A program made the translations under genes and the position numbers. From Tetradesmus obliquus (taxonomy: Eukaryota > Chlorophyta > Chlorophyceae > Sphaeropleales > Scenedesmaceae): 64,000 nucleotides of DNA. Below are positions 1,498-51,676 of this stretch, one piece after another. Position 1 is the stretch's first letter. Every line of letters starts with the position of its first letter. The notes beneath the pieces are model-generated. The model was given only the letters and a program-made list of their open reading frames with translations. It made no database searches and was not told where the DNA came from. The DNA lies in NCBI GenBank assembly GCA_030272155.1, contig CP126198.1, positions 1,798,001 through 1,862,000 on the forward strand, read 5' to 3'.

Positions 1498-4400
1498 TTA
1501 CTCCTGTGCTACTGCCAGCGCTGGCTGCATGCTGCTCCTCGCGCCCATGTCAGCACACGACTGCGACTTGCTGTACGCCCGGTGCGACAAGCCAGCAGCC
1601 GAAGCCGCGGTATAGCCGCCACCAAACCCTAGTGCCAGCCCATCAACTGGTGCCCCAGCAAAGTGTGCTGCCCGCCCCGCAGGATGCTCCGGCAGTAGCA
1701 CACTGCTGCCAGCACTGTTGCTGCTGTTGCTGTCGACGTAAGCACCTTCGCCATTACCTCTGCAAGTACTGCTGCTGCTGCTGCTGCTGGTGACGGGACC
1801 TGCACCTGCACCAGCTGCTGCTGCTACTGCAAGGCCCTCCTGCATTGCGCAAGCAGCAGCGTCTGCTGCATGGCTGCCTGGCGCACTGCGCCCCAGCAGC
1901 ACACACGCATCAGCTCTGCTGCTGCTGCCCTTGCCACTGCCTTCATCAGAGCGACCGGCATGCTTCACACTGACCCCACACGCTGCATTTGCAGAGCTAC
2001 GCTGCAGACAGCCCGGCCCTGCTGCTGCTGCTGCTGCTGAAGGCCCTGTAGTGCTTGCAGCCCCTGCAGCGCGGCATGTCTTCGCTCCTGTCCCCACACT
2101 GATGCTGCTTATTCCTGCGCCTGCGCCTGCGCCTGCTGCTGCTGCGCTTGCCCCCGCTGCAGCTCCTGCAGCTGCAGGGACCTGCGCTGCCGGCAGCCCT
2201 ATGCTAGGCTTTGCAGCAACAGCAGCAGCAGTCCCTGGCACTAGCTTCACTCCTGCTGGCGTCACATTGATCGCACGCGGCAGGGACTTGCCTCCTGCCA
2301 CTGCTGCATGGTGCTGCACATACAGATAGGCCAGCCATTTGAGGCTGAACCCTAGCACAACTTGAAATGCGCAGGCAGCCAGCCATGCGAACAGCAGGAA
2401 GGCTGCACGCAAGTGCCACTGTGGAGGGCCGTCGCCTTTCAGGGTGAAGAGCGTGTGCAGCATGCGCAGGCACAGCGCTGCAGGTCCCATGGGGCAGAAG
2501 CCGACCTGAGGAGAATGGCAGCAGCAGCAGCAGCAGCAGCACAGGGTACCAGCAGGTCAGAAGCTGCAGGGCTCATGGATCAGAAGCCGACCTGCAAACA
2601 ACGGCAGCAGCAGCAAGTCAGCAGCTGCCAGATCAGCTTTCAAGGCAGCGGCTGTGCCATGAAAGCGCAGCAAGACAGCACAACAGCGCACCAGTGCGCC
2701 AGTTGTGGGCCAGGTGGCCTGGCCGGGTGATTGTGACAATGCTGGCACTGACACCAGTCCCTGAACCACTTAGCAGCTTGTGCATGTTGTGGCTGTGGTG
2801 GTCGATGCTGCGCTAAGCCAATTCATACCACAGCACAGCACAGAGCAAGCCGAGCAAAGCGGGCAAAAATACAACACACTCACCAGCTTGTGCATGTTGT
2901 GGCTGTGGTGGTCCATGCTGTCGCCGCAGAGGTCGCGCATGTACTCCCGATAGATGCCCGGCCGGATGTCGTTGAACTTGCCCAGCACCGCGTGCTTGGC
3001 GATGTCGATGATGATCTGCAGGGACAATGCAGCGCAGCAGTGATGCAGCAGCGTTGCAGCGCAGGGCACACGTCAGGGAGTGGTGTGAATTGTGAACATT
3101 ACCAAAGGTTGAACTTGCCCAGCACCGCGTGCTTGGCGATGTCAATGATGATCTGCAGTGACAGTGCGGCGCAGAGCAAACAGCAATGTGGCGCAATGAA
3201 AGTAGAGCAGATGCAGCATAGTAAGGTGTCAGACAGCGTGCGCTTTGCCCAGCACCGCGTGCTTGGTGATGTCAATGATGATCTGCAGCAACAATGCGGC
3301 GCAATGAAAGTAGGCAAGACAGCAACAGAGCACAGTGTCAAACGGCACGCACAAGCCATGCTTGGCGATGTCAATGATGATCTGCAGCAGCGCAGCAAGG
3401 ATGAGGCGCGGAGCACACAGCAGGGTGGTTTAGTGCATGCGCTTGCTGAACTTGCCCAGCACCGCGTGCTTGGCGATGTCGATGATGATCTGCAGTAAAA
3501 GTGCAGCAATGATGAGGCGCGGAGCACACAGCAGGGTGGTTCAAAGCATGCGCTTGCTGAACTTGCCCAGCACCGCGTGCTTGGCACTGTCGATGATGAT
3601 CTGGCGCACAGTGCGGCGCAGAGAGTGGTGTCAGAAAGCATGCACAATCAACGATCTTGCGCGCAGTTGCACGCAGTTGGTACATAACAGTGCACTGCAG
3701 GGACAGAAAAAGCGTCGCTGCAACAAGGATGCTTCAAGCGCTCACCTCCCAGAGAAGCAATGCCTCGCATGCCCAAGAGAAATCCTGCCGTGTAAAGCCG
3801 ACTGTGTCCCTCAACTCTCACACACAGATGCGCCCACACATCAGCAGCACTGCAGGCTACAAAACACTCACCAGATTTTTTTGTGACAAGCCATCAAAAG
3901 CCAGCCGTGCCCCTCACCTCCCAGAAGAAGATGCGCCCGCACACCAGCAGCACTGCAGGCTACAAACACTCACCAAAATTAATTGTGACAAGCCATCAAA
4001 AGCCAGCCGTGCCCCTCACCTCCCAGAAGAAGATGCGCCCGCACACCAGCAGCACTGCAGGCTACAAACACTCACCAAAATTAATTGTGACAAGCCATCA
4101 AAAGCCAGCCGTGCCCCTCACCTCCCAGAAGAAGATGCGCCCGCACACCAGCAGTCACTGCAGCCAACAACATGACTATAACGCATCCGCCACCTGAAGG
4201 CCACGACACACGAGCTGTGTCCATCCTCACCTCCCAAAAGAAGATGCGCCCGCACACCAGCAGCACTGCAGCAGCGGGCAGCCAGCTGCCGCCGTTGCTG
4301 ATGTCCTCCACCACCACAAAGCACAGCACCAGCAGCAGCTCAAAGCGCTCCACGATGTCCTGCAGGGCAGCAAAGTGACAAGAGATGCATAGCGGCAAAA

Positions 4401-7400
4401 GATAGGACAGTATGATACAGAAGTGAAGCAGGCATCAGCAGCAGCTCAAAGCGCTCCACAATGTCCTGCAGCAGGTTGCAAAAAGCACCGTAAAGCAAGG
4501 GATCAACCGCACATGTCAGCTGGTACCATGGTGCAAACATGTGATGGTGATTACAGTCGCCAATGTCCTGCAGCAGGTTGTTGTAGCGATCAGCCAAGTC
4601 ATTGAATGTTGCTACGAGGGTTCATGAGCTACAATTGTGGGTTAAAAGTCAATTCAAACCCACCTGGCAGGCCAGCGTCCAGAGCTTGTTGGTGTCGGTG
4701 CGCTTGTAGACCTGCTGCCCCTAAACCTAAAACCCGAATAACAGGCATCGCAAACCCAAACCAACAGCCTGGTCACCTGGCAGGCCAGCGTCCACAGCTT
4801 GTTGGTGTCGGTGCGCTTGTAGACCTGCCCCTCAAAAACCTAACACCCAAATTACATGCAGCGCAAACCAAGAATCACAGGCCACACATACCTGGCAGGC
4901 CAGCGTCCAGAGCTTGTTGGTGTCGGTGCTTTTGAACCCCAGCAATCCCAGGAATCCCCAGCCATCACCCTGACATCATCACATCAACTCTACACAGCCA
5001 CAGCCGCACAGCCCCTGCCTACCCACCTGCCAGCGTCCAGAGTTTGTTGGTGTCGGTGCGCTTGTAGACCTGCCCTTTGAGCTCCACAAAGTTGGTGGCG
5101 ATCATCAGCGCCAGCAGCGCGTTGGCCTTGCTGTTCATGGTCACAGCAAACACCATCGCCTGTTGTAGCAGCAGGGAGTTCATCAGCACAAGCAGCGCAT
5201 TAGCTTTGCAACTCACAGTTAGACAGCGTGCAGGAGACGCCGGGGCACCGTACAAAAACTGAAGGCACAAACACGCTACTGCGGAGATTACAAACAGAGC
5301 AAAGTCTGGCGGCGCAACTGGCGTGCTATCTTGCAACATGGCATGCTGCCAGCCAAGGCCAAGCAGCAACGTGTGTGTTTCGCGCACCGGCAGGCTACCC
5401 TGTCCAGCAGCAAATCAAAAACAAACGCCGCACCTGGCACATCAGCCACTGCTGTGTGCAATGTATATATATCAGCAGGTATGGCACCAGCAAACCAACA
5501 AGTTTGAATGCCGCCGCCGCAACAGCACCATCACCAAAGGACCACACCACCACACTCCGCACCTGGCACATGAGCACGCTGCCGTGCGCTGTGATCAACA
5601 GAAAAGCCACCGCCAAGTCTGACGCCAGCAGGCCCAGGTCACATGAATAACAGCGGTCCCAAGGCACAAACTCAAACTCACAAGGTGAACCCACACAGCA
5701 CATGCCGAACATTCTTGAGACATTACTGAGCCCAACAGCGACCAGATAAAACAACCACAGCGCCGCACCTGGCACATGAGCACGCTGCCGTGCGCTGTTA
5801 TCAGCAGGAATGCCACCGCCAGGTCTGACGCCAGCGGCCCCAGGCCTATGCTGTGGCGCGTGAACAGCGTGCAGGTGCTGCTCAGCGCCTCCAGCACATC
5901 AACACCAAAGTTGGACAGGATCTGCAGTTGATATGGCGACAAAAAAGCGGGTCAGGCCAGGACTATGTGTGACAGAAGACAGGTTTCACAGCAGAATGTG
6001 CTGCTCAGAGCCTCCAGCACGTCCACACCAAAGTTGGACAGGATCTGCAATCATAAAAGGATTGCAAAGCAGGGCGTGTCACAACAGAACAGAATGTGGC
6101 ACTGAGGGAAGGTGATACAGATAAAGGTGCTGCTCAGCGCCTCCAGCACGTCCACACCAAAGTTGGACAGGATCTGCGTTTGTGGCAGATTTTCAAAGAA
6201 AGACTGGTTACAAAAAAGCATGAAACTACAAAGCGTTTACATACATAAGGTGCTGCTCAGTGCCTCCAGCACGTCGACAGTTGGACAGGATTTGCACTGT
6301 GTACTGTGCATGACCTGGATCATCATTGTCGTAGGAGCCAGCAAACCCGGCCTGTGTTGCTGCTGCTGTGCTGCATGCACATGCTGCTGATCAGTGCAAC
6401 CAGCAACCTGCCACCGCACCACACCCTCTCCAGGACCTCCAGTGCAGATCCTGCTGCTGCTACTGCTGCTGCTGCCGCTGCTGTGCTGCACCATGCTTGC
6501 ACTGCTGCAGACAGCCACCTAGCACCAGCCGCAGCCGCACCTTATCTAGGATCTCCAGTGCAGTGAAAATGACCTGGATCTTCAAAAACTCCGATGTTAT
6601 GTCCTTCATCCAGTAGTAAATCACCCCAGGCTTGATCAGACTCAGCACGCCGGCAGCCGCCAGCAGCAGCAGCACACACAAAAAGTCGTACAGCTGCGCC
6701 CCAGAGGGCACGCCGCGGCTGCGGCTGCCGGCGGCAGCTGGCGGCTGCCTGCTGCTGCTGCTGCGCGCTGCGCTTGGCAGCAGCAGCAGCGAGGAGCCCA
6801 GCTGCCACATCGTGCGCAGGCAGCGCAGCGGCAGCACCGTTAGGGCCCCCTGCAGGAATAAGAAGCAGCAGAGATGCAGCAGAGTGCAGAAGCATTAGTG
6901 GATGTGTGGATTCCTGCAACTGACGTTGAGCAGCACATGGCATGTCAATGGGCTGCTGCCGCTGCTCACCAGGAAGGAGTAGAGGCACAGCAGCGTGCCA
7001 AAGATCAAGGTAACATGACCATGTAATGCCTGACTGCTGCTGCCGCTGCCGCTGCTGCTGCTGCTGCTGCTGGTCACCAGGAAGGAGGAGAGGCGCAGCG
7101 GCGTGCCGAAGATGTACACATACACGCTCATGTAGTGCCCAACTGCTGCTGCCGCAGCTGCTTCCGCCACCGCTGCTGCCGCTGCTGCTGCTGCTGTCGC
7201 TGCTCACCAGGAAGGAGTAGAGGCACAGCAGCGTGCCGAAGATCATGATGCGCTCCAGCTGGTAGGGCACGTACAGCAGGAAGTTGTAGCTACAGCCAGG
7301 AACAAACAACACGTGCAGTTTGCAGTTTCAGTGCATTTTAAAAGCCAGGCCAGGCACATCGTGTGCAGCGCTTTCATTGGATGCACAGGCACATCACTGC

Positions 7401-8160
7401 TGAAAGTGAAAATATACATGGGCACTGCTGCTAGCGCTCCATGCAACGCGCCCAACAGCTGCAATTGCTCAGCACAGGTGTCACTTACTGCACCCCCTAC
7501 ATCCGCGAGCCTGCTGCTGCTTGCAGGAAACAGCTCAGGCAGCAGCTGCACTGCCCTACAATGCCCGTACTGCATCTGATATAGCAGCAGCACCGCAGCT
7601 ATCTACTAACCCAGCTACCCCAGCCCAGCAGCAGCACATCCACAGCTAGTCCTGCTGATCTATCCCAGCCAAGCTCACACTTCGTCGCGCATTTGCATTT
7701 GCATTTGCATTTTGCATGCTGGACTGTCCATCATTACACCACTACAGCTATCTACTCACCCAGCCATCCCAGCCAAGCTCACACTCTACTGTACTGTATA
7801 CGACACAGCAGCAGCAACCACCACAGCTATTCGCTATCTGCTATCCCATTTAGTCACACTCACACTCTGTCGCGCTCTGTCTGCCGCCACAGCACATCTG
7901 CTGTTGGGTACTTCTCATGCGGCGTTGCCTCCGCATGAAAGAAGTCCCACAAGCTAGGAGGAGGCGCAGGAGGGTTGGGCTCTAAACTGACCATTGTTTG
8001 CAGGCCAGTTCCCGGCCGCATGCTGCTGCTGCTGCTAGGTGTGCCGCTGTGCTGCTGCTGCCCTGCCCCATGTAGGTGCGTGTGGTGGTGCTGCTGCTGC
8101 TGCTGGAGGTGGCTGCTCTGCAATGGTCCAGCCTTGGTGGGAGAGTGAGGCCGAGACGAC

Positions 8161-8198
<38 letters not shown>

Positions 8199-9437: not shown

Positions 9438-10987
9438 ATGGCTGGCCTGTTCAGGGCCAAGAAGGCTTTTGAGGAGGGAGATGTAGAGTTCTGGCACAAC
9501 CCAGAGCGTGGAGGCTGGCTGATGAAGCAGGGTAAGTATGTGTCGCAGCGCAGCAACAGGTGCCGCATGCACAGTGAGCTCTAGTGTGCTCCTTGACACA
9601 TTGATGCTGCAAAACTGCCGCTTCTGATGCTCATGCTTTACTGCATGCATGCACTAATGTGCTGCTGTCATTACTGCAGGGGAGTACATCAAGACATGGA
9701 GGCGCAGGTGTGCTGCAGCATTTTAAGTGCCAAGCGCCACTTGCATGTTCCATGCATGCGCAGAGCATCACAGCTGGCCTGCAGCTGCTTTCCAGCTGCA
9801 ACGCGCAGCTGCATTTTTCAGTCTGGGCAGCACCTGCAGTATGCAGTAGGAGGGAGTGCACATGAGCAACAGCAAGCGCACTGCACCCGCTGACTAGCAG
9901 AGCTGGGTGCCTGACGCCCTGCCCTACCGCTGCTGCTGCTGCTGCTGCTGCAGATGGTTTGTGCTCAAGCAGGGCAAAATCTTCTGGTTCAAGTCTGATG
10001 TGGTCACACCAGTGAGTGCTGACACAGCAGCCAGCAGCAGCAATGCCACCTTTTAGGCAACAGCGCAGCAGCAAAGACTGGTTACACCTAGATGCTCAGT
10101 TGCGATGCTAGTTGCAGTTGGTTCAAGTCTGATGTAGTTGCACCAGTGAATTGCGCAGCAGGCATGCTGCCCAGCTGCCAGCAGCAGCAACGCTGGCTTT
10201 CAGGCAACACAGCAACAGCAGATACTGGTTACAGCTAGGTGCCCAGCTGCCATGCCAGCCATGTTGCAGCTGCGCTGTTGTCACACTAGTTTCGCATGCT
10301 GCTGCAGCATGCAAGCTGCAGCAACAGCAGCAGCAACCAGTTTGATCAACCTGTCGTGTTGTATTGTCCTTGCAGGACTCTGTGCCACGGGGGGTCATCG
10401 AGGTATGTGATGCTGCTGATTCGACTGTCGACTCGTGCTGTGATGTGCTTGTCTACCACTCAACTGCTTGTTGTTGGGGCTCCTGGCTCCTGTGCACAGC
10501 AGTCATCTAATAGAATGTGTGCTGCTTGCGCATGCAATTGCTTGCATGTTGACTGGGTTGCATGGACCTGCAGCGTTTCCGCAGCACACGACACTGTAAA
10601 TTTTGACAGATGACAGTTATGTTGGTGGTACATTGTTATATGTAACCTCCTGCTGCAGGTGAAGAAGTGCCTGTCCATCAAGGGTGCGGAGGATGCCATA
10701 AACAAGCCGCACGCATTCGAAATCTCAACAACAGACTACAACATGTTCTTCATCGCTGACTCGGATAAAGTGAGTGGCACTTTATGCGCATTTTCTTCAC
10801 CATCATCGTCTTGTTGTCAACTAGGCCATATGCACCTGTTAGGTTGCAAGGGTGATGAAGCGTTATAAGGCACTGTGTGGCTTTTTTTGTGCCTTTGCTC
10901 GGATGCATCTCGGGCACCATGACAGCAGCAGGCTACAATGTTTCCCAGAGATTAGTTGACCTGCTTGCTGCTGCCATTGCTGGCTGC

Positions 10988-11056
<69 letters not shown>

Positions 11057-11383
11057 AGGAGAAGGAGGACTGGATCAATGCAGTGGGCCGCGCCATCGTA
11101 AAACACTCCAGAAGGTAAGCCCTATAAGTTTCTATGCGTTGTGAACAACGGTGTTGTGCAACGCGTTGCTGGTTCAGCATATGTGCCACACGCCCCTTGC
11201 ACGGTGTGCATACCACAGCTGCATCAGGCGCTGCTGCGGAAGGTGAGTGCTTCTAGGTTCTCAAACCACCTCTGCTGCCTGATGCATGCTGCTTCAACTC
11301 AGTGGTGTGCTGTTTGCTGTCTTGCAATGCTCTGCTGCCGTAGTTTGCTGGACACAGACCAGGCAGACTACACCACCAGCTGA
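9438..11383 (+). CDS. PH1: Pleckstrin-homology domain protein, AtPH1-like
   Basis: Seven exons (9438-9531, 9680-9707, 9954-10011, 10376-10402, 10659-10769, 11059-11114, 11344-11383) give 137 residues, close to the roughly 145 of Arabidopsis PH1. The protein is a stand-alone PH domain, which in this family binds phosphoinositides on membranes. Visible blocks in order are VEFWHNPERGGWLMKQG, YIKTWRRRWFVLKQGK, SVPRGVIE, CLSIKGAEDA, YNMFFIADSDKEKEDWINA and the C-terminal helix AVGRAIVKHSR, with the diagnostic Trp in DWINA. The short tail is DTDQADYTTS. The ATG is in good context and opens the conserved region. The intron before exon 3 and the one before exon 6 end in (CTG)n. A copy of the exon 3 donor edge lies downstream. 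Confidence 0.95.
9986..10245 (+). repeat. Tandem copy of PH1 exon 3 end and following intron
   Basis: About 120 bp starting at the exon sequence for WFKSDVVTP is repeated from about 10107 to 10245, with the GT donor retained and intron sequence still alignable. Similarity is clear but imperfect. Confidence 0.8.
10984..11057 (+). repeat. (CTG)n tract forming a 3' splice site
   Basis: About 24 CTG units with one interruption run directly into the CAG acceptor of PH1 exon 6 at 11059. No ordinary pyrimidine tract is present. Confidence 0.9.
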
Positions 11384-13050: not shown

Positions 13051-14389
13051 ATGCCCTGCTGTGCCAGCCCCACACAGCACAACAGCAAGCGCCACTTCTT
13101 CATGGCTATCGGCTCAGTCCTACTTGCAGCAGTGGCCCTGGTTGCCATTGCTGTGCCTGTCACTGGTGCGATGAAATCTCACCAGCAGCAGCTCTCAGCA
13201 GCAGCAGCTAATCTCACACAAGCAAAAGCAGAGGCAGCAAGCAGAGAAGCAGGCAGCGGCAGCACGTTGCCGGAAGCTGCTGCTGTGCTGCAGCCGGTGC
13301 CAGCTGGCACACCAGAGTGCAATGGAGTTCCAGGGTTGTGCTCTGTGCCTGTCAGGTGAGGCAGCGGTGCTGTGGCCAACTATAAACTCACAGTTACAGT
13401 TAGAGCTGTGATGTTCAAAACGTGTACACACCTCCTCTTACACCACTGTGCTTGTTTTGAAAGCTCAGTGGCAGCAGCGGCGCATGCATGGTCTTGGCTG
13501 GACCAGCAGCACAGCAGCGCTGGCATGCAGCATGAGCTGCAGCATACATTCAGCCTTGAAAGTTGCACGAGCAGCAGCAGCAGCAGCAGCAGTAGCAACA
13601 GCGCCAGCGTTAGTATGGTTTCAGCAGGCCAGTGACATGCTCTGGCAGCAGCAGGTCGGGGCGCCTGGGCGCCCCCTGCTGCAGCTGGCGAATTGTCATT
13701 GAAGACAGAACTCCTCAGCAGCTGCGCTGATGCACAAGGTGCTTGCAGCGCGTGCCACACGTAATCCCACCTATGATGGGCATCAGAGCACCCAGACAAC
13801 GGCAGCAGCTCAGCTTTTCAGCTGTCGTTGCTGCAGGCTCACTAGTATCTCCTGCAATGCTCGAGCGCAACACCCTGCCGCACATCACCGCAGCTTCAGC
13901 TGCATCTTGACTCATCGTGTTTGTTCTGCTGCTGCTGCTGCTGCTGCTGTGCAGGTTGGTCACATTCGCCGGCACTCACAACAGCAACGCAATAAAGAAC
14001 CGGGAGTTTATCGCGGAGAGCCAGCAGCTGGGGTTCAAGGAGCAGCTGGCGGCTGGCGTGAGGCTGTTCGACCTTGACTTTGCAGGTGCGTGACAATATG
14101 TTATGTATGTGTTACAAATGTGTTACATATGTAGTGTGGTAAGGCTCAAAAACCGGGAGTCCATTGCAGAGAACCAGCAGCTGGGGTTCAAGGAGCAGCT
14201 GGAGGCTGGTGTACGACTTTTTGACCTGGACTTTGCAGGTATGTTACAGCTGCAGTACACAAATGTGTTGCAAATATCTTGGGATTGGAATGCTTTGGTG
14301 ACATCTTTGCTGCCGAGCTCAGCAACAAGCGGCTAATCTGGCGTTCTGGCAAATTGCACAGAGAGGCCGCTTCCATGAAGGCAGCAGCA

Positions 14390-14426
<37 letters not shown>

Positions 14427-16134
14427 CTTGTTGGTGGTGGGTGCTGACTGGGCACCACATCAGCATCAGGCAAATCAAATTGTAGAGGGCAACATCAGCT
14501 GAATTACAACGCTTCATGCAAAGACGAAGCAAAAGCCACCCTGCTAGTGTTTTGAATGTATGCCTGTGCTGAAGTTTGCTGCATGCTGCGTGTTGTGTGC
14601 TTTCTGCTGCAGGGCCGCAGTATGGTGGGCGGCTGGGCCACTGCTTCTCCTGCTTTTGCGCATCTTAAAGCTTGCTGCGTGCTGTGCGCTGCTGTTTTTT
14701 GCAGGGCCGCAGTATGGTGGGCGGCTGGGGCATTGCTTCTCCTGCTTCTGCAGCTTCTCAGCAAACCTGGATGACTCAGACCCGGCAAAGGTAAGCAGCA
14801 GAAGGTGCAGCAGCCAGTGCTGCTGACACACCTTGTCACAGATGTTACCTCTGTGAGATCTTGTTACTTCTGCCGCAAGCGGCTCCTGCAAGTTGTATGT
14901 CAATGTCGTAACACTCAGAAGACAGCAAGTTCAAACATTTCTTCCATTGGCACCTAGCCCCTGCTAATGCGTATGAACTGGCTGCTCCGCTGCAGGTGTT
15001 TGCGGCTATGGCTGATTTCCTTGCAGCCAACCCGCGTGACGTCATCGTCATCGGCATGAGCAACATCAACTGTGGTGACAAGGAGGAGGCCCGCCAGCAG
15101 CTGCTGCAGGTGCGCGGCGGCAGTGTGCATACAATGTCACATAACAACGTGTGGCTGAATGCAACTGCCAGTGTAGTTGTGATCAAGTGACTTGATGATG
15201 GTACCTCACAAGTGACTGCCAACACCATGCTGGGCCAGCTGGTGGATTTGCTGCCATGCCAAGGCCATGCCACCAACTGTTGTGCCGTATGTTGACTGGC
15301 TGTATCTTCTGCAGATGCTGGCAGCATGTCCGCTGTACGAGCATCTTGCCACCACTGCCGTAACTGTCAGCACCCACTGGCCTGGATTTGTCGCGTTGTC
15401 AATGCTGCTGCTGCTATCTCCACTGCAGGTGCTGGCGGCGTCTCCGCTGTCAACGACCTTGCCACCACTGTCGTGAGCCCCAACACCACGTTGGGCCAGC
15501 TGGTGGACTCCAAGCAGCGCACAGTATCATGCCACCAACTGCTTTGCGACATGCTGAATGGCTGCCGCTGCAGGTGCTGGCGGCAATTCCACGGCAATTC
15601 CACAGGCATTTGAGCGCATCTGTATGCACTGCCAACGCCTCACTGCGCCAGCTAGTGGGCTCGTAGTTACATTGCAATTTGCATGGCTGCTGCAGGTGCT
15701 GGCGGCGTCCCCGCTGTACGATCATCTTGCCACCACTGTCGTGACTCCCAACACCACTCTAGGCCAGCTGGTGGACTCGAAGCAGCGTGCATTGCTGCTG
15801 TTCTACGACCAATGGACCTCACCAAGCGGCTTCAAAGTCGGCAGCAAGGTGCGCAGGGGCCAGCTAACCGGGGATGCAAATTACAACTTGCTGTGAGCTA
15901 CAACTGTAAGGCGCAGCTCCCCCTTGGGTGCCAGAAACCTATCTGCGTGCACTGATGTGCTGTGCGCCGTCAATCAAGCCCGCCACGTGTATGCCTCTCT
16001 GCTGGCGCTCGTGCTGACTGGCGTCCAGTTACACCAGCCGCTGAAAAGCCAATAGTCAAGGCTGTTGCGTACCATTGGGCGACCTTGCAGGTCTCTGCGT
16101 CTCACACGTGCCTTCTGCCATCATTCAATGCTGC

Positions 16135-16208
<74 letters not shown>

Positions 16209-17811
16209 GCAGGACGTGCCCAACCAGCCCTTGGTGCGTGTCTACGGCGGTGACACCACAATCGACGCCACAGGGGCCGCAGCAATTGATGCCGAGCTTG
16301 CAACAGAGCTGTTGTCAGACATCAGCAAAGGATTCAAGGCTGCTGCTGCAAGTGTGGAGTCACCCTGGAGGGTGCTGGGCTTGTTTCCTTCAACCTGCCT
16401 CAGCTGCAGGAATGCGGCACAGTGCGGGCCCATCAGCTGTGCCATCAAAGTCAACACGGAGGCGTTTGTGCTGTACAAATTGGGCAAACTCACAACAGAG
16501 TGGCTGGTGGCGCAGGGCAAGGCACAGCTGGTGCCAGCCTTCAACGGCTACCAGGTGGGTGGTGGCATCTAAGGGTTGTAGGGTTTTGAGCGTGGAACCC
16601 TAAGCCGTACACACAGAGTGGCTGGTGGCGCAGGGCAAGCCGCCTGCCTTCAACGGCCACCAGGTGGGTGATCCACAGCGAACGGGTTTATGTACAACAC
16701 TTCATTTATTTTTTCAGTAGCATTGCACGGCATCTGCACACATGCATGTGAGCAACGCATGTACAATGTGTTTGGAGCGCAGGGCAAGCCGCAGCTGGTG
16801 CCTGCCTTCAACGGATACCAGGTGGGTGATTGCAGCAAAGAGTGAAACAAGTTCATGCTGTAATCAATTCACTTAAACATGGTGGTGATGCACAGCATCA
16901 GCAGCACAGGCTTGTGAGCAATGCAGGTTATGTACGGGGCTACGTGACCACAACCACCGCTGTATGTGTGTGACGGGGTGGCAATCATGCTGGGAATGGC
17001 ATCGCTCACACAGGAACCTTGTCACGCAGCCAACTCACACCTATTGCTTGCTGCTGCTAGTCCTGTCTCCATCAAAAACCCGTCACACGTGCTTTCCTGG
17101 TTTCTGCTGTGCAAGTTGACTACTTTGGGGTGGCTGGCGGCAACCGGGGCCTACCGGAAGCAGCGGAGAGGATCAACAAGGCTGCTGCTAGTCCTGTCTC
17201 CCTCCAAGCAACCAATACACGTGCATTGCTGCTGTGTGCAGGTTGACTACTTTGGGGTTGCTGGCGGCAACCGAGGCCTGCCAGAAGCAGCGGAGCGACT
17301 CAACAAGGCTGCTGCATGGATGTATGTGCAGCGTCCAGCAGAGGCCCCCAGTCAGGGCCTTGGAAATTGTGTGTGGCTGCTAGACGATGATGCTGCAGCA
17401 GGGGGCCTTGCATGTGTGCATCATGGGCAGCAGAGGATGGACTCACTGCTGGGATTGGCAGCAGCAGGCAGTACAGATGGTACAAGCAGTACGGGCAATG
17501 CGTCATCTGGCAGTACAAGCGGTACAGCTGCAAGTAATCCAGTGAGCAGGTTAATGTATGGACGGCGGCTAGCTGCAGCTGATGCAGCAACAGCAGCAAC
17601 TGCAGCGGATGCTGTGACGGCTACAACTGCCAGCAGCAGCAGCGGGCGCAGCAGCCGCTGGGTGCTGCTGCCGGCGAATGCGAAGCTGCAGCTGCAGCTG
17701 TTTGAAGGAGGGAAGGTGAAGCGGCAGGTGATTGGCACGCCTGGCAGGCTGTCGTGGGTTGATGTGGGCAGCAGCGCAGATGCTCTGCAGGTGCTGTGGC
17801 CTTCAAAGTAA
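13051..17811 (+). CDS. PI-PLC X-domain-like phosphodiesterase, membrane-anchored or secreted
   Basis: Seven phase-consistent exons (13051-13355, 13955-14085, 14705-14790, 14996-15109, 15696-15848, 16213-16554, 17242-17811) give 566 residues. A basic start is followed by one hydrophobic segment (about residues 19-40), a signal anchor or signal peptide; an alternative ATG is at 13102. The X-domain-like core shows CNGVPGLC, then VTFAGTHNSNA with a candidate catalytic His110. FDLDF, RLGHCF (candidate second His155) and FLAANPRDVIVIGMSN follow, then DSKQRALLLFYDQW. Plant relatives have the same order: GTHNS, LMLDMYDF, LCHS, NPSEIVTIF, QRLVVFTS. The last 150 residues are Ala/Ser-rich with no clear family. 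In this family the enzyme cleaves phosphoinositide-type lipids; substrate and activity are not shown here. Introns carry many exon-edge copies. A candidate TGTAA signal lies 28 nt after the stop. Confidence 0.88.
14136..15620 (+). repeat. Exon-edge copies in PLC introns 2-4
   Basis: A copy of most of exon 2 with its donor lies at about 14139-14241 but lacks the GTHNS start. A copy of the exon 3 start with its acceptor is at 14608-14668. Upstream of exon 5 there are at least four partial copies, at about 15195-15250, 15314-15380, 15428-15540 and 15570-15600. Three begin with a CTGCAG acceptor and code for VLAASPLYDHLATT or remnants of it. Confidence 0.9.
16131..16206 (+). repeat. (CTG)n tract before the PLC exon 6 acceptor
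   Basis: About 25 units of CTG run into TTGCAG, the acceptor of exon 6 at 16213. Confidence 0.9.
16612..17200 (+). repeat. Exon-edge copies in PLC intron 6
   Basis: Two donor-side copies of the exon 6 end (AQGKAQLVPAFNGYQ plus GTGGGT) are at about 16612-16668 and 16770-16826. One acceptor-side copy of exon 7 (VDYFGVAGGNRGLPEAAER) is at about 17110-17200, upstream of the true exon at 17242. Confidence 0.88.
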
Positions 17812-19294: not shown

Positions 19295-19317
19295 GCCCCC
19301 CCTCCCCCCCCCCCCCC

Positions 19318-19355
<38 letters not shown>
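19295..19355. repeat. Poly(C) tract
   Basis: About 60 bases almost purely C, ending in an uninterrupted run of 35 C. On the minus strand this is poly(G), able in principle to form a G-quadruplex. It lies just past the stop of the papain-LRR gene. Confidence 0.95.
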
Positions 19356-38609: not shown

Positions 38610-38674
<65 letters not shown>

Positions 38675-39411: not shown

Positions 39412-39446
<35 letters not shown>

Positions 39447-41287: not shown

Positions 41288-41292
41288 TGTAA
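41288..41292 (+). terminator. Candidate TGTAA polyadenylation signal of the Cys-rich gene
   Basis: TGTAA 86 nt past the stop codon, followed by an A/T-rich stretch. Confidence 0.4.
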
Positions 41293-42109: not shown

Positions 42110-42580
42110 TGATACACCAGTCGGCGCCCTGGCGACACACTAGCACTGCTGTTGTATTACTGCCTGACAGTGAGCCAGTTGTTGAGTCGCTTCCTGAATG
42201 TCAACCAGCTGCCGCACTGGTGGCACTATAAATGTGCATGTTGATGAGTTGCTGCCTGATGGTTGACCAGTTGGCACCCTGGTGACACTGCTACTAGCCG
42301 TACTGGTGACACTGCTACTAGCACTGCCGTACTACGGGTCGGGTACTGGCAGTACCATCAGTAGCGGTACTGTTGTTGAGTTCCCGTCTGCGCGTCGACT
42401 AGTCGGCACCCTGGTGAAGCACTAGTACTGCTGTTGTATTACTGCCTGAGCAGCAACCAGCTCAGGCCTGGCGGCGCTAGTTATGTTGTTGAGTTGCTGC
42501 ATGATGGTCAACCAGTCGGCGCCCTGCTGGCACTAAGGCGGTTGTTGAGTTTTCGTCTGGCAGTCAACAAGGTGGCGTCG
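42110..42580. repeat. Degenerate minisatellite
   Basis: Phrases such as GTTGTTGAGTTGCTGCCTGA, TCAACCAGTCGGCGCCCTGG and CACTAGTACTGCTGTTGT recur in the same order at uneven spacing of roughly 60-120 bp. Fainter related phrases start near 41890. Copies are diverged. Confidence 0.75.
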
Positions 42581-42810
42581 CCACTCCAGGGCCTGGAGTG
42601 ATCCTTGTGCCGTGGCACCACCGAAAGTGTCAGTTCCCCCATGTACCAGCGATCTTGCGGCTGCTAGGCTATTAAAAAGCACTCAAAGTGGTGGACTAGT
42701 AGTATTGGAAGTACTACTGATGTCATTGCAGTGCCTGTTACACTCCGTTACCATGGCAGCACGTAACAACTCAGCACATTGGATGTACCGTGACGACACA
42801 AGCAAGCCTA

Positions 42811-42851
<41 letters not shown>

Positions 42852-42852
42852 A
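42811..42852. repeat. Intergenic (CTG)n tract
   Basis: About 14 CTG units ending in CTGCAGCAATG. No coding exon was recognised after the CAG. Confidence 0.9.
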
Positions 42853-44514: not shown

Positions 44515-45151
44515 CCGTATGTTAACACATCAGCCCCTGGCAGAGCTCTTTACTGTCAGCCCCGGGTGCAGCGACGCTCAGCCATACTACTGCGCCGTCC
44601 CTGCAGAACCTCCACTTTTGAATTGTATTTTGAACCCTGCCTGCCGTTTGCTCACATCAGCCCCTGGCAGAGCTCTTCACTGTCAGCCCCGGGTGCAGCG
44701 ACACTCAGCAAAACCAATACACCTTCCATGCAGAGTCTCCACTGTGAAAAGTACCGTGAACCCTGGCAGCTGTCTGCTCACATCAGCCTCTGGCGGAGCT
44801 CTTGACTGTCAGCCACGGTGCAGCGACACTCGGCCATACCAGCACACGGCCACTGCAGAGCTCCGCACATAAAGCTGTGAAGCCTGACTGCCGCTTGCTC
44901 ACATCAGCCCCTAGCAGAGCTCTTCACAGTCAGCCCCGAGCGCAGCGACACTCAGCAAACCAATTCACCTCCCCTGCAGAGTCTCCGCTGTGAAATGTAT
45001 CTTGGCCCTGGCAGCTGCATGTGCTCACATCAGCCCCTGGCAGAGCTCTTGACTGTCAGCCCCGGGTGCAGCGACACTCGGCCATACCAGCACACGGCCA
45101 CTGCAGAGCTCCGTACTTACAACTGTAAAGCCTTACTGCCGCTTGCTCACA
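44515..45151 (-). repeat. Tandem copies of the last exon end of the LRR gene
   Basis: Five copies, at about 44528, 44658, 44782, 44906 and 45032 (period about 125 bp), repeat the terminal coding segment encoding VSLHPGLTVKSSARG and downstream sequence. The true last exon ends at 45152. These copies lie past the stop codon, so here the duplication extends beyond introns. Confidence 0.88.
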
Positions 45152-48100
45152 TCAGCCCCTGGCGGAGCTCTTCACTGTCAGCCCTGGGTGCAGCGACACC
45201 AGCCGCGCCTTGAAGCCCTCTGAATGCTTGCGGATGCCTGTGCGCAGCACGCACAGCTCGCTCAGCTGGCTCAGCTCCTTGGCGATACTGGCCGGCAGCA
45301 CCTCCCCAGTCAGCCCTGCAAACCGCAAAAGAATCAAAGCAAGCAGTACCGCAAAACAGTGAGTTGACGAGGTTCAAGTCGGTATGTGTGCTGCAAGCAG
45401 CACAGCTCACTCAACTGGCTGAGTTCTTTGGCAATGCTGGCCGGCAGCACCTCCCCGGTCAGTCCTGCAAGCAGCACAGCAGGCAGCACACGCAGCCCAG
45501 AGTTGCAGTGTGCATGCGCAGCCCATCATGTGATAAAAACTATGCACGTAGTGTATGCCTGGGCTGCTAGCACGGCTACTGTACACTCCAGCGCAACCCC
45601 CAACCCTCCCATTCCAGTGAACACTAGTGTACAAGCGCATCACCTGGATTGCAGTCCAGTTTGAGCTTGCGCAGCCGCTTCAAGCTGCCCGCAATTGTAT
45701 TCACTGCAGAGTCCTGCAGCCCGCAGTCACACAGCACCAAGCTTGTGAGCTGCGTGGCGCTGGCTAGCTGCTCTGCTGCCTCATCATCGATTGGCAGCAG
45801 GCTGTCGCAGCCCTTGCTGTAGATTGCACAGCAGGTCAGGCTGTTGAGCTGCGGGCTGTGTTGGTAGTGTGGGGAAATGGTGGTGTTGAGGAGGGCGCGC
45901 GGTGGAAGAGCAGCAGCAGAGGCAGCAAAGGCAGCAGAGGCGGCATAGCGCAGGGTTGGTTGAGTTGGTTGGCTCACTGGTATGCAAGTGAAGAGAGCCA
46001 GCAGAAGTTTTCTAGGTGACGCCACTGGCGTCGTAGTGGCACTAGTGCCCATGCAGTAAGCCATCTGGTGGATTATTCAATCAAGTATGCACGGCAACCT
46101 ATCATGCTTGCACAGTGAAGCCGGCAGCTGCCGTTTGAGCAGCTGGCAGCAGAACCAATCGTACCCCACTGCTTCCCGGCAGATACATGCAGCACATGAG
46201 CACTACTACACACACCCAGACACGCTGCACTCTCACAACCAGCCACTCACAGGTTTGCAATAGCTTGCATAACTGTTGCCAGACCTTGCCGCGCCCGCGC
46301 GCCGCTGCTGCTGCTGCTGCTGCTGCCGTCGCTTGCGCTGCTGCTGCTCCTGCTGCATGTGCCATTCAACCCATTCCCGCCAGCACCACCTCTCCCATCT
46401 GCCGCCTGTGCCTCAAGTGACAAGCCGTTCAAACCAGTTTGAATTTCAAATTCAAATCCATGCTCAGCTGCAGCTGTCGGCTCAGGTTCAGGCAGCAGCT
46501 CAAAACCCCTAAGCCCCAGCTCCTGCAGGCCGGTCATCTGCCCGAGCACAGCAGCAAACTGCTGCGGAGTGGCTTCAAACTTGCCAGCGTGCCGGCAGCA
46601 GCCGGTACCTCCGTACACATCGAGGCGCACGAGGTCCTGCAGCTTGCCCAGCTGCTGCAGCGTGGCAGCGGACACGCAGCCCTCAACCGCCCGGAAGTCC
46701 TGCACGCGCACAGAAGTGAGGAACACAAGCAGTGAGGCAGCAAACAAGGCAGAGGAAATGGTGTAGGAAGAGCTGCTGCAACGTGGCAGCAGACACGCAG
46801 CCCTCAACCGCGCGGAAGTCCTGCAAGAGTGATGCAGAAGCAAATGGCAGAAAACAGCAAGGAAAGTTGGTGATAGCGCTTAGGGCACAGCTGGTGGCGC
46901 ATGCGCAGCCCTCAGCTGTGCTGAAGTCCTGCAAGCGCAAAAGAGTGAGGCGGACAGCAGAAAGGAGTGAGGCAGCAAGCGCAAAGGTGCGAGGTAGCAA
47001 GCGCAAAGGAGAGTGTCGGCAGCAGCCGGTACCTCCGTACACATTGAGGCGCACGAGGTCCTGCAGCTTGCCCAGCTGCTGCAGCGTGGCAGCGGACACG
47101 CAGCCCTCAACAGCCCGGAAGTCCTGCAAGCGTGAGGCAGTGAGGAAAAACAAAGCAGTGAGGCAACAGGATGGCAGGGGACACATTGTAGGAAGAGCTG
47201 CTGCAGCGTGGCGGCAGACACGCAGCCCTCAACCGCCTGGAAGTCCTGCAAGCGCAGACAAAGAGTGAGGCAACAGGGCTTGGCGGGAAATCGTGAAGGG
47301 AGAGCTGCTGGTAGCACCGCATGCACACAGAGCTGCACACAGATGGCCTGTTAGCCTGTGTGTTTGGAGCAAGCAGGAGTGCATGTTGTTTTGCTGTGAC
47401 GCAACGCTGAGCGCTCCACTTGCAGCTGCTTGGTGTGAAGCAATGTGAGTGTGTGCACAGGTGGCATAACACGTAATCTACCTGCTGTTGCTGCTGCACT
47501 TGTTGAGCAATACATGCTGCCGCATCCGCGAATGCTGTGTGCGGATGACGATTCCACTGCTGCAAAGTGTTACAGCACTTTCCTAGCTGCCTTTGCATTT
47601 CCGCTCACCAGGCTGCGTATCGGCAGGGCGCTCCAGCCGGCTGCTGCAGCCGCTGCATCTGCCATCTCGCCGTAGCACAGCGACACCTCCCGCAGCTGCG
47701 GCAGGCCTGCTGCTACTGCCAGCAGCACTTCAGCAGGAGTGGTGGTCAGAGACATGTCCAGCACCTGTGGGCAGATTTGAAAGCAGGCACATCGCACAAG
47801 ATTGACGCTTGCACATGCTCTGTGCGTATCAACATGTAGATGTTGTGGGTGAAGTGCCATGCTGCCTTCTCAAGGCAACAGCAGCGCCAGCAGCACCTCA
47901 GCAGGGGTGGTGCTCAGTGACATGTCCAGCACCTGCGCAGACAAAAGACAAGCAGGCACTTGGCACACCATGAAACATAGTACACAGTATGCTGTTGCTG
48001 CTACTGCCAGCAGCACCTCAGCAGGAGTGGTGCTCAGCGACATGTCCAGCACCTGTGGAAGATATACAAGCAGGCACATCGCACACAGATTGACGCTTGC

Positions 48101-48737
48101 ACACACTCCATTTTCATGAACATGTAGATGTGGGTGAAGTGTCATGCTGCTTTCTCCAGGCAACAGCAGCGCCAGCAGCACCTCAGCAGGGGTGGTGCTC
48201 AGTGACAAGTCCAGCACCTGCGCATACAGAAGACAAGCAGGCACTTGGCACACCATGAAACACAGCACACCATGTACTGTTGCTGCTAACGTCAGCAGCA
48301 CCTCAGCAGGAGTGGTGCTCAGTGACATGTCCAACACCTGTAGACAGACTTTGCAAGCAGGTACATCGCACACCACCGAGACATGGCTCACACAGCCGCT
48401 GCTGCCACCACTGCTGCTGCTGCCACGAAGAAGGTAAGTTGAGCAGCCCTTCACTTATAATAGCGCAAACAGGTGCGGCATGCCGTGCGATCATCACCTA
48501 AGATACTGATACCCTGCCCAATAGCACAGCCACCATCTCACTGCCAACACCATGACGCATCTCACCCACCTCTAGCCGAGTCAGCGGCAGCAGCGGCGTG
48601 CTCGCCCAGCAGTCCCGCACACGCAGCACCACAACGCTTGCAGGAAGCACATCCCCTTCCTGCAGCTTGCTGCTGCTGCTCCTTGCATTTGTAGAGCCCT
48701 ACATCTGATACGTATCTAAGGTGCGGCATGCTGTCTG

Positions 48738-48795
<58 letters not shown>

Positions 48796-49769
48796 CAGCA
48801 TCACCTGCGCATCAGCCCAAACTCACAAAACAAAACCTAAAGCACACAGCCCCGCCCACCTCAAGCTGCGTCAGCGGCAGCAGCGGCGCGGTTGCCCAGC
48901 AGTCCCGCACACGCAGCACCACAAGGCTTGCAGGAAGCACATCACCCTCCTGCAGCACCAGCGGCTTACTGCTGCTGCTGAGCTCTGTGAGTCTGGTCAA
49001 ATGTCCCAGCTGCAGCAGCGGCAGCGCCTCGCACTTTCGAATGCGAGAAAGTGACATGTGTAACGACAGCAGCTGCGGCGGCAGCCACTTGAGCTTGGCG
49101 GCTGCTGTGGGTGCAGTGATGTCGTGGATTGCCAGCTGTGTGAGCTGAGTCAGCGCGGCAACTGCGGGGCAATGAAAAGAGCATATGCAAATTGGAATCG
49201 AGTGTACACACTGCAGGGTGTGATTGATAGCCAGCTGGGTGAGCTGAGTCAGCTCACCGGCGACTGCAGGGCATTGAGAAGCGCAAGTGCAAACTTGAAT
49301 CGAGTGTACACACTGCAGGGTGTGATTGATAGCCAGCTGGGTGAGCTGAATCAGCGCGGCAACTGCAGGGCATTGAAAAGAGCATACGCAAATCTGAATT
49401 AGAGATACACACTACAAGGTGTGATTGATAGCCAGCTGGGTAAGCTGAGTCAGCGCAGCAACTGCAACAGGGCCAAAGATGAGGAGGATACAGACACAGC
49501 AGCAAGTCAGTAGGTTGCTCAGCTGTTGCTGTGAACAGCGCCGATCGCCGCCCCGCCGGCTGGTAACAGGCATGTCTGCATCGCCTGCGGTTGCTGCTGC
49601 TGCTGCAGGTGTTTCGTTTTTGCATACGCCACCAGGTCTGCTGCTGCTCTTGCTACCCCTGTTACTGCTGCTTGCCGCATCTGCTGTCGCTGCCGTCGTG
49701 GCCACTGCTGCTGCTGCTGCCGCCGGCCCTCCCACTCACCTGCTGGCAGCAGCACGTCACAGCTGCCGC

Positions 49770-49814
<45 letters not shown>

Positions 49815-49842
49815 ACATCTGCTGGCAGCCGTACATCGGCAC

Positions 49843-49876
<34 letters not shown>

Positions 49877-49966
49877 CACCTGCTGGCAGCAGCACGTCAC
49901 AGCTGCCGCTGCTGCTGCTGCTACTGCTGCTGCTGCACATCTGCTGGCAGCCGTACATCGGCACTG

Positions 49967-50008
<42 letters not shown>

Positions 50009-51306
50009 ACCTGCTGGCAGCAGCACGTCAGCGCTGTCGCCATGCAGCACCAGGCTCTGCAGCCGGGTCAGACCCTCAAGAGGGAACGTGCTGCATAACA
50101 GCAGCAGCAGCAGCAGCAGCATGCGCCGTGCAACAAGGTTTCAACAGGTTGCTCTCATCACAGCGCAGCCACACCAACTACACAACACACAGGCAACTGC
50201 GGGCTGCATCCGCTTATAAGCCGGTGCTGCTGTGAAGCAATCGCGCACGAGCTGCGCTTTCCTCAACTGCCGCCAACTTTGTTGTGTGGCTTGCTGCCCC
50301 TCGCTGCAGGCACTGCGCGCTGCAATGTGTAGGGCAGCAAGCAGAGCATGTGCATGCTGCTCGCTCACCTGCTGTACTCTGCGCGGGGGCCCAGCTCCAG
50401 ATGCCGCATGTAGTATGTTGGCAGGTACTGCAGCACTGACCCTGCACAGGCTGGGTAGCTGCGGTACGTTGTCAGCTGAAGGCCTAGGCTGCTGCCTCCC
50501 TTTGCACGCTGCAGTGCGGAGGCTATCAGTGACTCTGCCTCCAGCCACTCTTTGCCTGCAGGTAGCAGAATATGAGGCGCAGCAGATGTAAGTTAGGTGA
50601 GGTGGAGGGGTGCCTCCTTGTGTGCGCTGCAATGCGGCGGCTATCAGAGACTCTGCCTCCAGCCACTCTTTGCCTGCAGGTACACAGCAGGGAGAACAGC
50701 AAGGAACGAAGCACAGAACACAGCAGATGTGAGTTGGGTGGGGTGGAGGGTTGCCTCCCTTTGCACACTGCAGTGCTGAGGCTATCAGAGACTCTGCCTC
50801 CAGCCACTCTTTTCCTGCAGGACACAACAGCAGGGAAGAAGCACAGAACACAGCAATTGTGAGTTGACTGGGGTGGCTACACGGTTGCAGTGCTTTGCTG
50901 CTGCCACCCTTTGCGCGCTGCAGTGCAGAGGCAATCAGTGAATCTGCCTCCAGCCACTCTTTGCCTGCAGGTAGCAAGACATGGAACACACCAGATATGA
51001 GTTAAGTGAGGTGGAGGGGTGCCTCCCTTTGCGTGCTGCAGTGCGGAGGCTATCAGTGACTCTGCCTCCAGCCACTCTTTGCCTGCAGGTAGCAAGACAG
51101 GTGAGGTGGCTGCCTCCTTTTGCATGCTGCAGCGCGGAGGCAATCAGAGCCTCTGTCTCCGGCGACTCATTTCCTGCAGGACACAACGGCAGGGAAGAAA
51201 CACAGAACACTGCAGATCTGAGTTGACTGGGGTGACCAGAAGGATGCATGTCCTTTGCAGCAGCAGTAAAGGCGGTGCTGGTGTTGCCTGCAGGACCGCA
51301 AGCCGC

Positions 51307-51357
<51 letters not shown>

Positions 51358-51676
51358 ACCTGCTGCTGCTGCTGCTGCTGCTGCTGCAGAGCGACAATGA
51401 CACATGTTACGGCCATACCCCACCTGTCAAGTTCAGGTTCAGGTTGAGCGACTTGAGCAGGTGCCCGTGCTTCTCCAGCCATGGGGTGAAGTGCTGCACA
51501 TGCTGTATGTCATACGCAGCAAATTTGACCACCATCTGGCCGTTGCAGCGCGCAGCGATGGCTGCTCGCAGCGCCTTGCTGACGCACAGCAGCCTGCATA
51601 TCTGCCCTGGCTGCTTGTTGATGCTGGGGTGCCGAATAATCAGCTGCAGGGGGTCTGTTTCCAGTGCCTCTACCAT
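45152..51676 (-). CDS. Leucine-rich-repeat protein with F-box-like N-terminus
   Basis: Eight exons (51676-51424, 50555-50369, 50090-50011, 49161-48860, 47764-47609, 46699-46251, 45855-45644, 45315-45152) join in phase to 600 residues. The start, with CRLLCVSKALRAAIAARC and LLKSLNLNLNL, resembles the F-box-plus-LRR layout common in algae, but the F-box match is loose. LRR-type segments follow: LTRLQSLVLHGDSADVLLP, LTQLTQLAIHDI, LGHLTRLTELSSS, GLPQLREVSLCYGEM, LGQMTGLQELGLRGFELL, ATQLTSLVLCDCGL and LSQLSELCVLRTGIRKHSE. A Ser/Gly-rich insert sits near residue 460. Possible substrate adaptor of an SCF ubiquitin ligase; this is inference. An acceptor 11 nt upstream of the ATG suggests a 5' UTR intron or a further coding exon. 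At least six of its eight exons have partial copies in the neighbouring introns or flank. Confidence 0.82.
45395..45470 (-). repeat. Acceptor-edge copy of LRR exon 8
   Basis: Repeats the start of the last exon (LTGEVLPASIAKELSQLSEL) with its TTGCAG acceptor, about 155 bp further 5' in the transcript. Confidence 0.85.
46780..47255 (-). repeat. Acceptor-edge copies of LRR exon 6
   Basis: Copies of the exon start (LQDFRAVEGCVSAATLQQL) with acceptor lie at about 46780-46830, 47030-47128 (extended to VRLNVYGGTGCCRH) and 47196-47250. A weaker one, LQDFSTAEGCA, is at 46905-46935. The parent exon starts at 46699. Confidence 0.9.
47883..48345 (-). repeat. Acceptor-edge copies of LRR exon 5
   Basis: Four copies of VLDMSLSTTPAEVLLAL with acceptor lie at about 47883-47940, 48006-48057, 48166-48224 and 48288-48343. 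They alternate between two subtypes with a higher-order period of about 284 bp, so a two-unit block was itself duplicated. Confidence 0.92.
48568..48672 (-). repeat. Donor-edge copy of LRR exon 4
   Basis: About 100 bp repeat the exon 4 end (GDVLPASLVVLRVRDCWA to LPLTRLE and GTGGGT), downstream of the true donor at 48860 in transcript order. Confidence 0.85.
48735..48795. repeat. CAT then CAG microsatellites in LRR intron 4
   Basis: About eleven CAT units followed by about six CAG units. Confidence 0.9.
49196..49475 (-). repeat. Acceptor-edge copies of LRR exon 4
   Basis: Three copies of the exon start (VAALTQLTQLAINHT) with their TGCAG acceptors, spaced about 118 bp apart, upstream of the true exon at 49161. 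Confidence 0.92.
49736..49990 (-). repeat. Donor-edge copies of LRR exon 3, embedded in CAG/CTG tracts
   Basis: The exon end CDVLLPAG plus GTGAG donor is copied near 49870-49905 and 49740-49775. Each copy is followed in the sense direction by CAG runs and by a repeated ADVRLPADV-like segment. Confidence 0.85.
50606..51182 (-). repeat. Five acceptor-edge copies of LRR exon 2
   Basis: Copies encoding GKEWLEAESLIASALQ, each directly after CCTGCAG, start near 50683, 50820, 50972, 51090 and 51179 in transcript order before the true exon at 50555. Spacing is about 90-150 bp. The most distal is the most diverged (GNESPETEALIASALQ). All keep the same acceptor phase. Confidence 0.92.
51308..51388 (-). 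repeat. CAG tract (sense) near the LRR exon 1 donor
   Basis: About 26 CAG units in the transcript direction, one interruption, starting about 36 nt after the exon 1 donor. Confidence 0.9.

Follow-up and report, generated by a model that had tools for sequence, protein, structure and literature searches.

The stretch analysed here, a window of 64,000 nucleotides from the green alga Tetradesmus obliquus (C8:1798001–1862000, contig CP126198.1; assembly of 104.66 Mb in 17 contigs), carries genes whose introns hold partial copies of the edges of their own exons, often lined up in ladders. Its G+C content, taken in 2-kb pieces, is 51–61%; the report on T. obliquus UTEX393 gives 108.7 Mb and 56.8% G+C (PMC7590803). 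Three D1 protease exon fragments from the genome, once joined, agree with PDB 1fc6, the Scenedesmus obliquus enzyme, at 161 of 161 residues, as fits Tetradesmus (Scenedesmus) obliquus or a relative almost identical to it. Local self-alignment showed tandem duplications clustered at ∼2.4–7.8, 10.0–10.3, 14.0–17.3, 42.1–42.5, and 44.5–51.3 kb. Four genes were modelled by splicing, TAPT1, PLC, LRR, and PH1. Their 28 exons have CAG at all internal acceptors and GT at the start of all internal donors, one of which (GTCTAC in TAPT1) is weak. The names TAPT1-like, PH1-like, and PLC-like were assigned by reading the protein, the four reference proteins were read from the same DNA, and exon edges were partly our own choice. 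Ab initio gene finding badly over-predicted and served only as a seed for protein searches. Edge copies were located by blastn of exons against their own introns, with 3 kb on each side. In the following list, acceptor copies derive from the start of an exon and donor copies from its end.

2260–7288, minus strand: TAPT1-like gene (DUF747 family), from spliced alignment; modelled exons 7208–7288, 6541–6849, 5769–5921, 5070–5159, 4664–4711, 4231–4359, 2884–3015, 2260–2505; the model starts at 7288, with further exons upstream
6970–7113, minus strand: TAPT1 donor ladder of exon 7208–7288, copies 7078–7113, 6970–7007
5998–6291, minus strand: TAPT1 acceptor ladder of exon 5769–5921, copies 6248–6291, 6125–6173, 5998–6044
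5563–5638, minus strand: TAPT1 donor copy of exon 5769–5921
4664–5069, minus strand: TAPT1 48-bp exon 4664–4711 with copies 4777–4824 (whole), 5029–5069 (whole to within 7 bp), 4892–4929 (partial)
4432–4465, minus strand: TAPT1 acceptor copy of exon 4231–4359
3826–4164, minus strand: TAPT1 donor ladder of exon 4231–4359, near-identical 102-bp units, copies 4122–4164, 4020–4060, 3918–3958, and edge-less piece 3826–3855
3108–3600, minus strand: TAPT1 acceptor ladder of exon 2884–3015, copies 3558–3600, 3447–3489, 3359–3381, 3245–3282, 3108–3152
2774–2810, minus strand: TAPT1 donor copy of exon 2884–3015
9438–11112, plus strand: PH-domain gene (PH1-like); exons 9438–9531, 9680–9707, 9954–10011, 10376–10402, 10659–10769, 11059–11112
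10119–10145, plus strand: PH1 donor copy of exon 9954–10011
13962–17469, plus strand: PLC-like gene; exons 13962–14085, 14705–14790, 14996–15109, 15696–15848, 16213–16554, 17242–17469 (open-ended)
14148–14238, plus strand: PLC donor copy of exon 13962–14085
14613–14659, plus strand: PLC acceptor copy of exon 14705–14790
15212–15519, plus strand: PLC acceptor ladder of exon 15696–15848, copies 15316–15374, 15429–15519, and edge-less piece 15212–15246
16613–16821, plus strand: PLC donor ladder of exon 16213–16554, copies 16613–16663, 16777–16821
17115–17188, plus strand: PLC acceptor copy of exon 17242–17469
∼26.2–27.9 kb, minus strand: PDCD5-like gene, placed by tblastn
26363–26380, minus strand: PDCD5 start-of-exon copy, 103 bp upstream of exon start 26277, 16 of 18 bases alike, found by eye
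45155–51676, minus strand: LRR gene; exons 51424–51676, 50369–50555, 50011–50090, 48860–49161, 47609–47764, 46251–46699, 45644–45855, 45155–45315 (then TGA)
50611–51171, minus strand: LRR acceptor ladder of exon 50369–50555, copies 51109–51171, 51020–51082, 50897–50964, 50752–50812, 50611–50673
49740–49909, minus strand: LRR donor ladder of exon 50011–50090, copies 49880–49909, 49740–49770
49212–49461, minus strand: LRR acceptor ladder of exon 48860–49161, copies 49427–49461, 49314–49362, 49212–49253
48570–48666, minus strand: LRR donor copy of exon 48860–49161
47886–48337, minus strand: LRR acceptor ladder of exon 47609–47764, copies 48281–48337, 48171–48217, 47996–48052, 47886–47932
46771–47245, minus strand: LRR acceptor ladder of exon 46251–46699, copies 47196–47245, 47010–47123, 46771–46820
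45396–45462, minus strand: LRR acceptor copy of exon 45155–45315
44533–45077, minus strand: five end copies of the final LRR exon, beyond the stop codon, 45033–45077, 44907–44956, 44786–44829, 44660–44709, 44533–44583

The initial annotation of this DNA had reported more than 35 such copies in five genes. We found 46 intronic edge copies in TAPT1, PLC, LRR, and PH1, of which 29 are exon starts, each in the directly upstream intron, 14 are exon ends, each in the directly downstream intron, and 3 (2 whole, 1 partial) derive from the one 48-bp TAPT1 exon; two pieces without an edge and the five copies beyond the LRR stop codon come in addition. The fifth gene, PDCD5, contributed a single short copy seen by eye, which is absent from the blast-based copy lists. 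The remaining five genes of the window had been described as free of copies, and self-alignment indeed gave no ladder-like pair at 17.4–42 or 51.3–64 kb, where the genes were not modelled and short copies can escape, as the PDCD5 copy shows.

Exons compared with their own introns read backwards gave no matches, against 179 on the real introns. Among 20 unrelated gene pairs there were 13 matches, 12 of them from one CAG-rich stretch of LRR exon 46251–46699 and 1, also CAG-rich, from TAPT1. A further 110 pairs of different genes gave 56 matches, and among the matches listed (10) all lay between CCT paralogues. The exon-edge copies are confirmed as real, beyond chance, and not limited to the window.

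Outside the window, five CCT genes (modelled on human CCT chains from the PDB; 56 exons, 51 introns) yielded 100 edge copies within introns. Of these, 49 are of acceptor and 51 of donor type, and every one lies in the intron next to its exon; 9 edge-less pieces and 1 inverted piece were also present, but no whole-exon copy. Two cpn60 genes, with references cleaned from predictions, held 8 copies in 18 introns, and HSP60 has two copies beyond its stop codon. These seven genes and the four of the window form an 11-gene set of 104 exons and 93 introns. Eleven copy rows lie at model ends, where no checked junction marks the edge (LRR 5, L036 3, HSP60 2, L035 1). They were left out of the intronic counts and of the codon differences of the intronic copies; those of CCT genes were included in the CCT copy catalogue, identity profile, copy-versus-copy, and Met/Trp analyses, and model-end rows also entered the spacing and unit-size measurements where spacing allowed.

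The 11 genes together hold 154 intronic edge copies: 81 exon starts in the adjacent upstream intron, 70 exon ends in the adjacent downstream intron, and the 3 from the 48-bp exon. At least one copy was present in 59 of the 93 introns (34 had none), with one to seven copies where present. Both kinds occurred together in 22 introns, bearing out the statement that one intron can hold two ladders, and donor copies preceded acceptor copies in 22 of 22. Scored for copies matching to within 3 bp of the edge, the splice site was kept as AG in 74 of 80 acceptor copies and as GT in 65 of 67 donor copies, which upholds the reported retention of splice sites.

Intron lengthening is usually ascribed to transposons or slow insertion. 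Here intron length followed 325 + 127 × copies (r = 0.76, P = 2 × 10⁻¹⁸ for 93 introns treated as independent), and the slope of 127 agrees with the separately measured unit sizes (median 120 bp for acceptor and 126 bp for donor units; range 85–192 bp in the units measured), close to the 90–150 bp first estimated. This slope and the occurrence of the pattern elsewhere in the genome bear out the proposal that the process keeps working at existing junctions, and continuing intron growth at such junctions is well supported. Lengthening steps of ∼120 bp each can thus be seen and account for a large share of intron length in the genes analysed, and a single genome seems to record the stepwise lengthening of its introns, leaving rows of spare splice sites presumably ignored by the cell.

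The pattern extends to other loci. HSP70 genes on C13 and C17 gave stepwise overlapping profile matches as in ladders; those at C13:4749798–4750450 and C17:238408–238865 look like acceptor ladders, with steps ∼157 and 130 bp apart. In 19 random 10-kb loci we found 57 tandem pairs within 200 bp, 35 of which have an aligned strong splice site in common, compared with 1% in a shifted-copy control; 10 of the 19 loci have at least one such pair. By the same test, the figures were 66 of 80 pairs for the CCT loci and 25 of 29 for the window. One locus, L016, has tandem repeats offset in many cases by a multiple of 36 bp, with an aligned splice site in 4 of 15 close pairs, and its repeats are probably of another kind. 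In the CCT1 locus (L033, gene coordinates 7635–7881), an array of 33-bp or 49-bp repeats begins exactly at a real donor.

Such placements would be expected if short tandem duplications (85–192 bp, median 120–126 bp) arise often. A duplication across an exon edge would leave two edges, and only the copy joined to the remaining exon could serve. The spare edge, with its splice site, would come to lie in the upstream intron for an acceptor, in the downstream intron for a donor, and in the 3′ untranslated region for a stop codon, and repeated events would build ladders that add ∼127 bp to the intron per copy. Whereas this history is a reconstruction, the placement and the length relation are observed. 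The donor-first, acceptor-last order arises because only one copy stays joined to the exon, the downstream one at an acceptor and the upstream one at a donor or stop codon. All three predicted placements were found, with stop-codon copies in LRR (5) and HSP60 (2), so that the systematic order noted at first holds for all start and end copies, but tandem geometry suffices for it and no special rule is needed. The stop-codon copies also show that duplication is not specific to splice sites; past the LRR stop codon they form an array at 44533–45203 of ∼126-bp units, each holding the last-exon end. No copy of a start codon was seen, only the PH1 and LRR models beginning at a presumed start codon. 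Duplications within an exon or of a whole exon would be removed because the protein changes, as their near absence suggests: whole-exon copies occurred solely for the 48-bp TAPT1 exon, whose length keeps the frame, among 104 exons, 43 of which are at most 120 bp long.

A feature new in this analysis is that most differences between the copies and the real exon fall at synonymous sites. For the 154 intronic copies, differences at codon positions 1, 2, and 3 numbered 121/2933, 109/2933, and 500/2915 (4.1, 3.7, and 17.2%), and 321 of 1599 4-fold sites differed (20.1%). Neutral divergence in place, which needs positions 1 and 2 to differ at no less than half the rate of position 3, failed (P = 2 × 10⁻⁴⁶ in a binomial test treating sites as independent). 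Mutation bias was rejected as well: the skew is present for each true base, and third positions of Met and Trp codons in the CCT copies differed in 0 of 61 cases. The skew persisted in the 7 copies past stop codons (4/114, 4/116, and 23/116 at positions 1, 2, and 3) and in 40 copies with an indel or a lost edge (45/732, 34/726, and 141/726), which argues against selection for translation.

Translation would be at work if alternative splicing at the spare sites gave functional transcripts and selection thereby kept the copies coding. Strong spare sites and a codon-like constraint speak for such use. We nevertheless regard it as very improbable, since the inner ends of CCT copies showed no consistent hidden splice site, spacings are not multiples of three (62, 53, and 47 in the three classes), and untranslatable copies carry the same skew. 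As judged from the sequence, then, simple neutral divergence in place does not describe the copies, and they are not translated either.

With both explanations failing, the synonymous differences were most likely there before the duplication: the copy would have been taken from one allele, and the reference exon would descend from another. The copies would then preserve coding alleles as they stood at the time of copying, already distinct from the present reference exon, and the codon pattern suggests that they came from a highly diverse diploid population with recombination. Published assemblies point to haplotypes that have diverged: sizes are 208 Mb for DOE0152z and ∼109 Mb for UTEX393 (PMC5552973), and the NREL 46B-D3 report describes alleles separated in the assembly (PMC7955037). 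A dispersed paralogue as source was rejected for three DNA probes, which matched only themselves, their own ladder copies, or sequences of 68–75% identity.

The main rival for the codon skew is selection on the copies as conversion donors, whereby copies swap sequence with the real exon and those with harmful changes are selected against although never translated. Such a load would account for the skew in untranslated and damaged copies without very high allelic diversity, and for the finding that CCT copies differ among themselves as much as from the exon (4.7, 5.1, and 18.3%). Frequent exchange should, however, hold copies and exon closer than 20% at 4-fold sites, and very large populations with efficient weak selection are required; we think it improbable. 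We tentatively suggest, with a confidence somewhat short of even, that the introns are archives of captured alleles, whether through a hyperdiverse population (∼15–20% at 4-fold sites) or through conversion load. If so, one genome holds in its introns a sample of the species' past coding variation, of which the codon pattern is an unexpected record.

That the copies differ from the exon as alleles might would also fit an assembly artefact, in which alleles or misjoined reads were strung in tandem. An artefact would hardly respect the splice side everywhere, avoid whole exons save one in-frame case, place one to seven copies in an intron, and make intron length track copy number, and we give this explanation almost no weight.

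It was suggested that the ladders may bring many competing splice sites, which holds on paper: median scores are 7.6 for both spare and real donors, and 6.6 for spare against 8.1 for real acceptors. The median exon is 129 bp and the median intron 412 bp, and short exons among long introns are the setting in which exon-spanning pairing of splice sites is expected. The spare sites may be silent because exons are recognised as the nearest acceptor–donor pair, so that a half exon with a single site would be skipped. Under pairing across the exon, each ladder would yield the real exon, whereas a copy of a whole exon would do harm. In 71 introns of at least 300 bp, base composition shifts from a richness in G downstream of the donor to one in C upstream of the acceptor, with like biases beside spare donors and acceptors. 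Pairing of the intron ends that loops out the ladders was rejected, the antisense score being 12.46 for an intron's own ends and 11.96 for those of other introns (P = 0.18; the same 71 introns). Because real and spare sites resemble each other in strength and seem to be distinguished chiefly by where they lie, the ladders offer a natural test case for exon definition.

The best explanation of the whole, to which we lean modestly, is that frequent short tandem duplications, silent under exon definition, preserve diverged coding alleles. Several findings weigh against it. A search for a second allelic copy in this assembly found none for three probes, a divergence of about 0.2 at 4-fold sites would be extreme for alleles, and spare acceptors score below real ones. 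Duplications are very uneven, with tandem coverage at a median of 1.5% in 20 random loci (8 of them zero) and at 32–60% in the five CCT loci. HSP70 genes on C3, C7, and C10 lacked stepwise overlap and proteasome genes showed little, as judged from profile matches whose thresholds short copies may fail to reach. Lastly, units are centred on the junction, with intron parts rarely below 45 bp and exon parts rarely above 85 bp, beyond what free placement gives; this must be due to selection for kept splicing signals or else speak for targeting.

Under targeting, a process aimed at exon–intron junctions (splicing-tied breaks, R-loops, or nucleosome position) would copy ∼120 bp centred there, with selection playing a minor part. 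None of the 76 acceptor units and ∼6% of the 72 donor units had an exon part above 85 bp, compared with ∼31–32% under free placement, and the 5th percentiles of the intron parts are 45 and 53 bp. Free placement nearly reproduces the observed exon parts, however, once intron parts below ∼55 bp are excluded for loss of splicing signals. Splice-site pairs dominate the visible duplications, but their share is inflated because parts derived from exons can be recognised long after intron parts have faded: in CCT copies, exon parts are 84–96% identical to the real exon in 5-base bins, and intron parts beyond the first 5 bases are at 0.60–0.74, against 0.54–0.63 for unrelated junctions. Intron sequence alone, with exons and copies masked, gave 17 junction-type and 13 other matches in the five CCT genes. 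By our count the 13 represent 6 to 8 separate events, and free placement would by our own estimate give a ratio of ∼1.3 to 1, so that a moderate preference for junctions is possible. The copies past the LRR and HSP60 stop codons and an intergenic-looking cluster at 42.1–42.5 kb count against targeting, which we consider unlikely, though a more serious contender than conversion load.

The nearest printed case we found is the potato RdRp gene, in which a single tandem duplication across an intron–exon boundary is reported to have produced an intron de novo by way of a cryptic donor (Ma et al. 2016, PMC4974935). As in that report, the duplicated piece in the alga spans the boundary with its splicing signals, and 17 junction-crossing units of the CCT genes were also matched by their intron part alone. 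The potato case is described as one event in one gene, whereas in the alga a gene bears numerous copies, on the acceptor as well as the donor side, introns already present lengthen, and the copies carry synonymous divergence. The AGGT model (Hellsten et al. 2011; reviewed in PMC3443670), as presented there, has one exonic AGGT duplicated in tandem to give both splice sites of a new intron. It shares with the alga that tandem-duplicated exon sequence ends up intronic. It differs in that the alga copies an already existing splice site, with CCT inner ends lacking a consistent AG or GT. The ladders sit in existing introns.

The only case resembling the AGGT model, as a possible exception, is the 48-bp TAPT1 exon, copied with its flanking CAG and GT. 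At 4664–5159 an exon is apparently split: the copy joined to exon 5070–5159 falls short of the others by 5 bp and loses the frame with the next exon, and spare copy 4664–4711, flanked by CAG and GTGGGT, continues and so restores the protein. If the assembly is right, a spare copy may have assumed the exon's role and so divided it, making this pair an intron-gain candidate.

Tandem exon duplication, including mutually exclusive exons, concerns whole exons with two splice sites. It resembles the ladders in placing exon-derived tandem copies inside the gene, but here the copies are half exons with one site, and whole copies exist for the one 48-bp exon alone. Minisatellites (variable number tandem repeats) in introns are likewise head-to-tail units able to expand; here, in contrast, units are tied to exon edges, few, diverged, and in one set per exon side. 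Introner-like spread, with similar sequence at many unrelated loci, was absent for the two exons tried: across the whole genome, the PLC and HSP60 exon probes found nothing other than themselves, the ladder copy belonging to each, or an exon of a paralogue. We found no account of such ladders in the open-licence literature searched.

Three further observations concern other parts of the window. Diverged tandem repeats at 42116–42535 lie where no gene was recognised. A run of ∼64 C at 19292–19355 stands just before a long minus-strand frame at 19432–20934, which has a 70% identical relative on contig C5. Lastly, (CAG)n/(CTG)n stretches are very numerous across the window, in exons, introns, and intergenic DNA.

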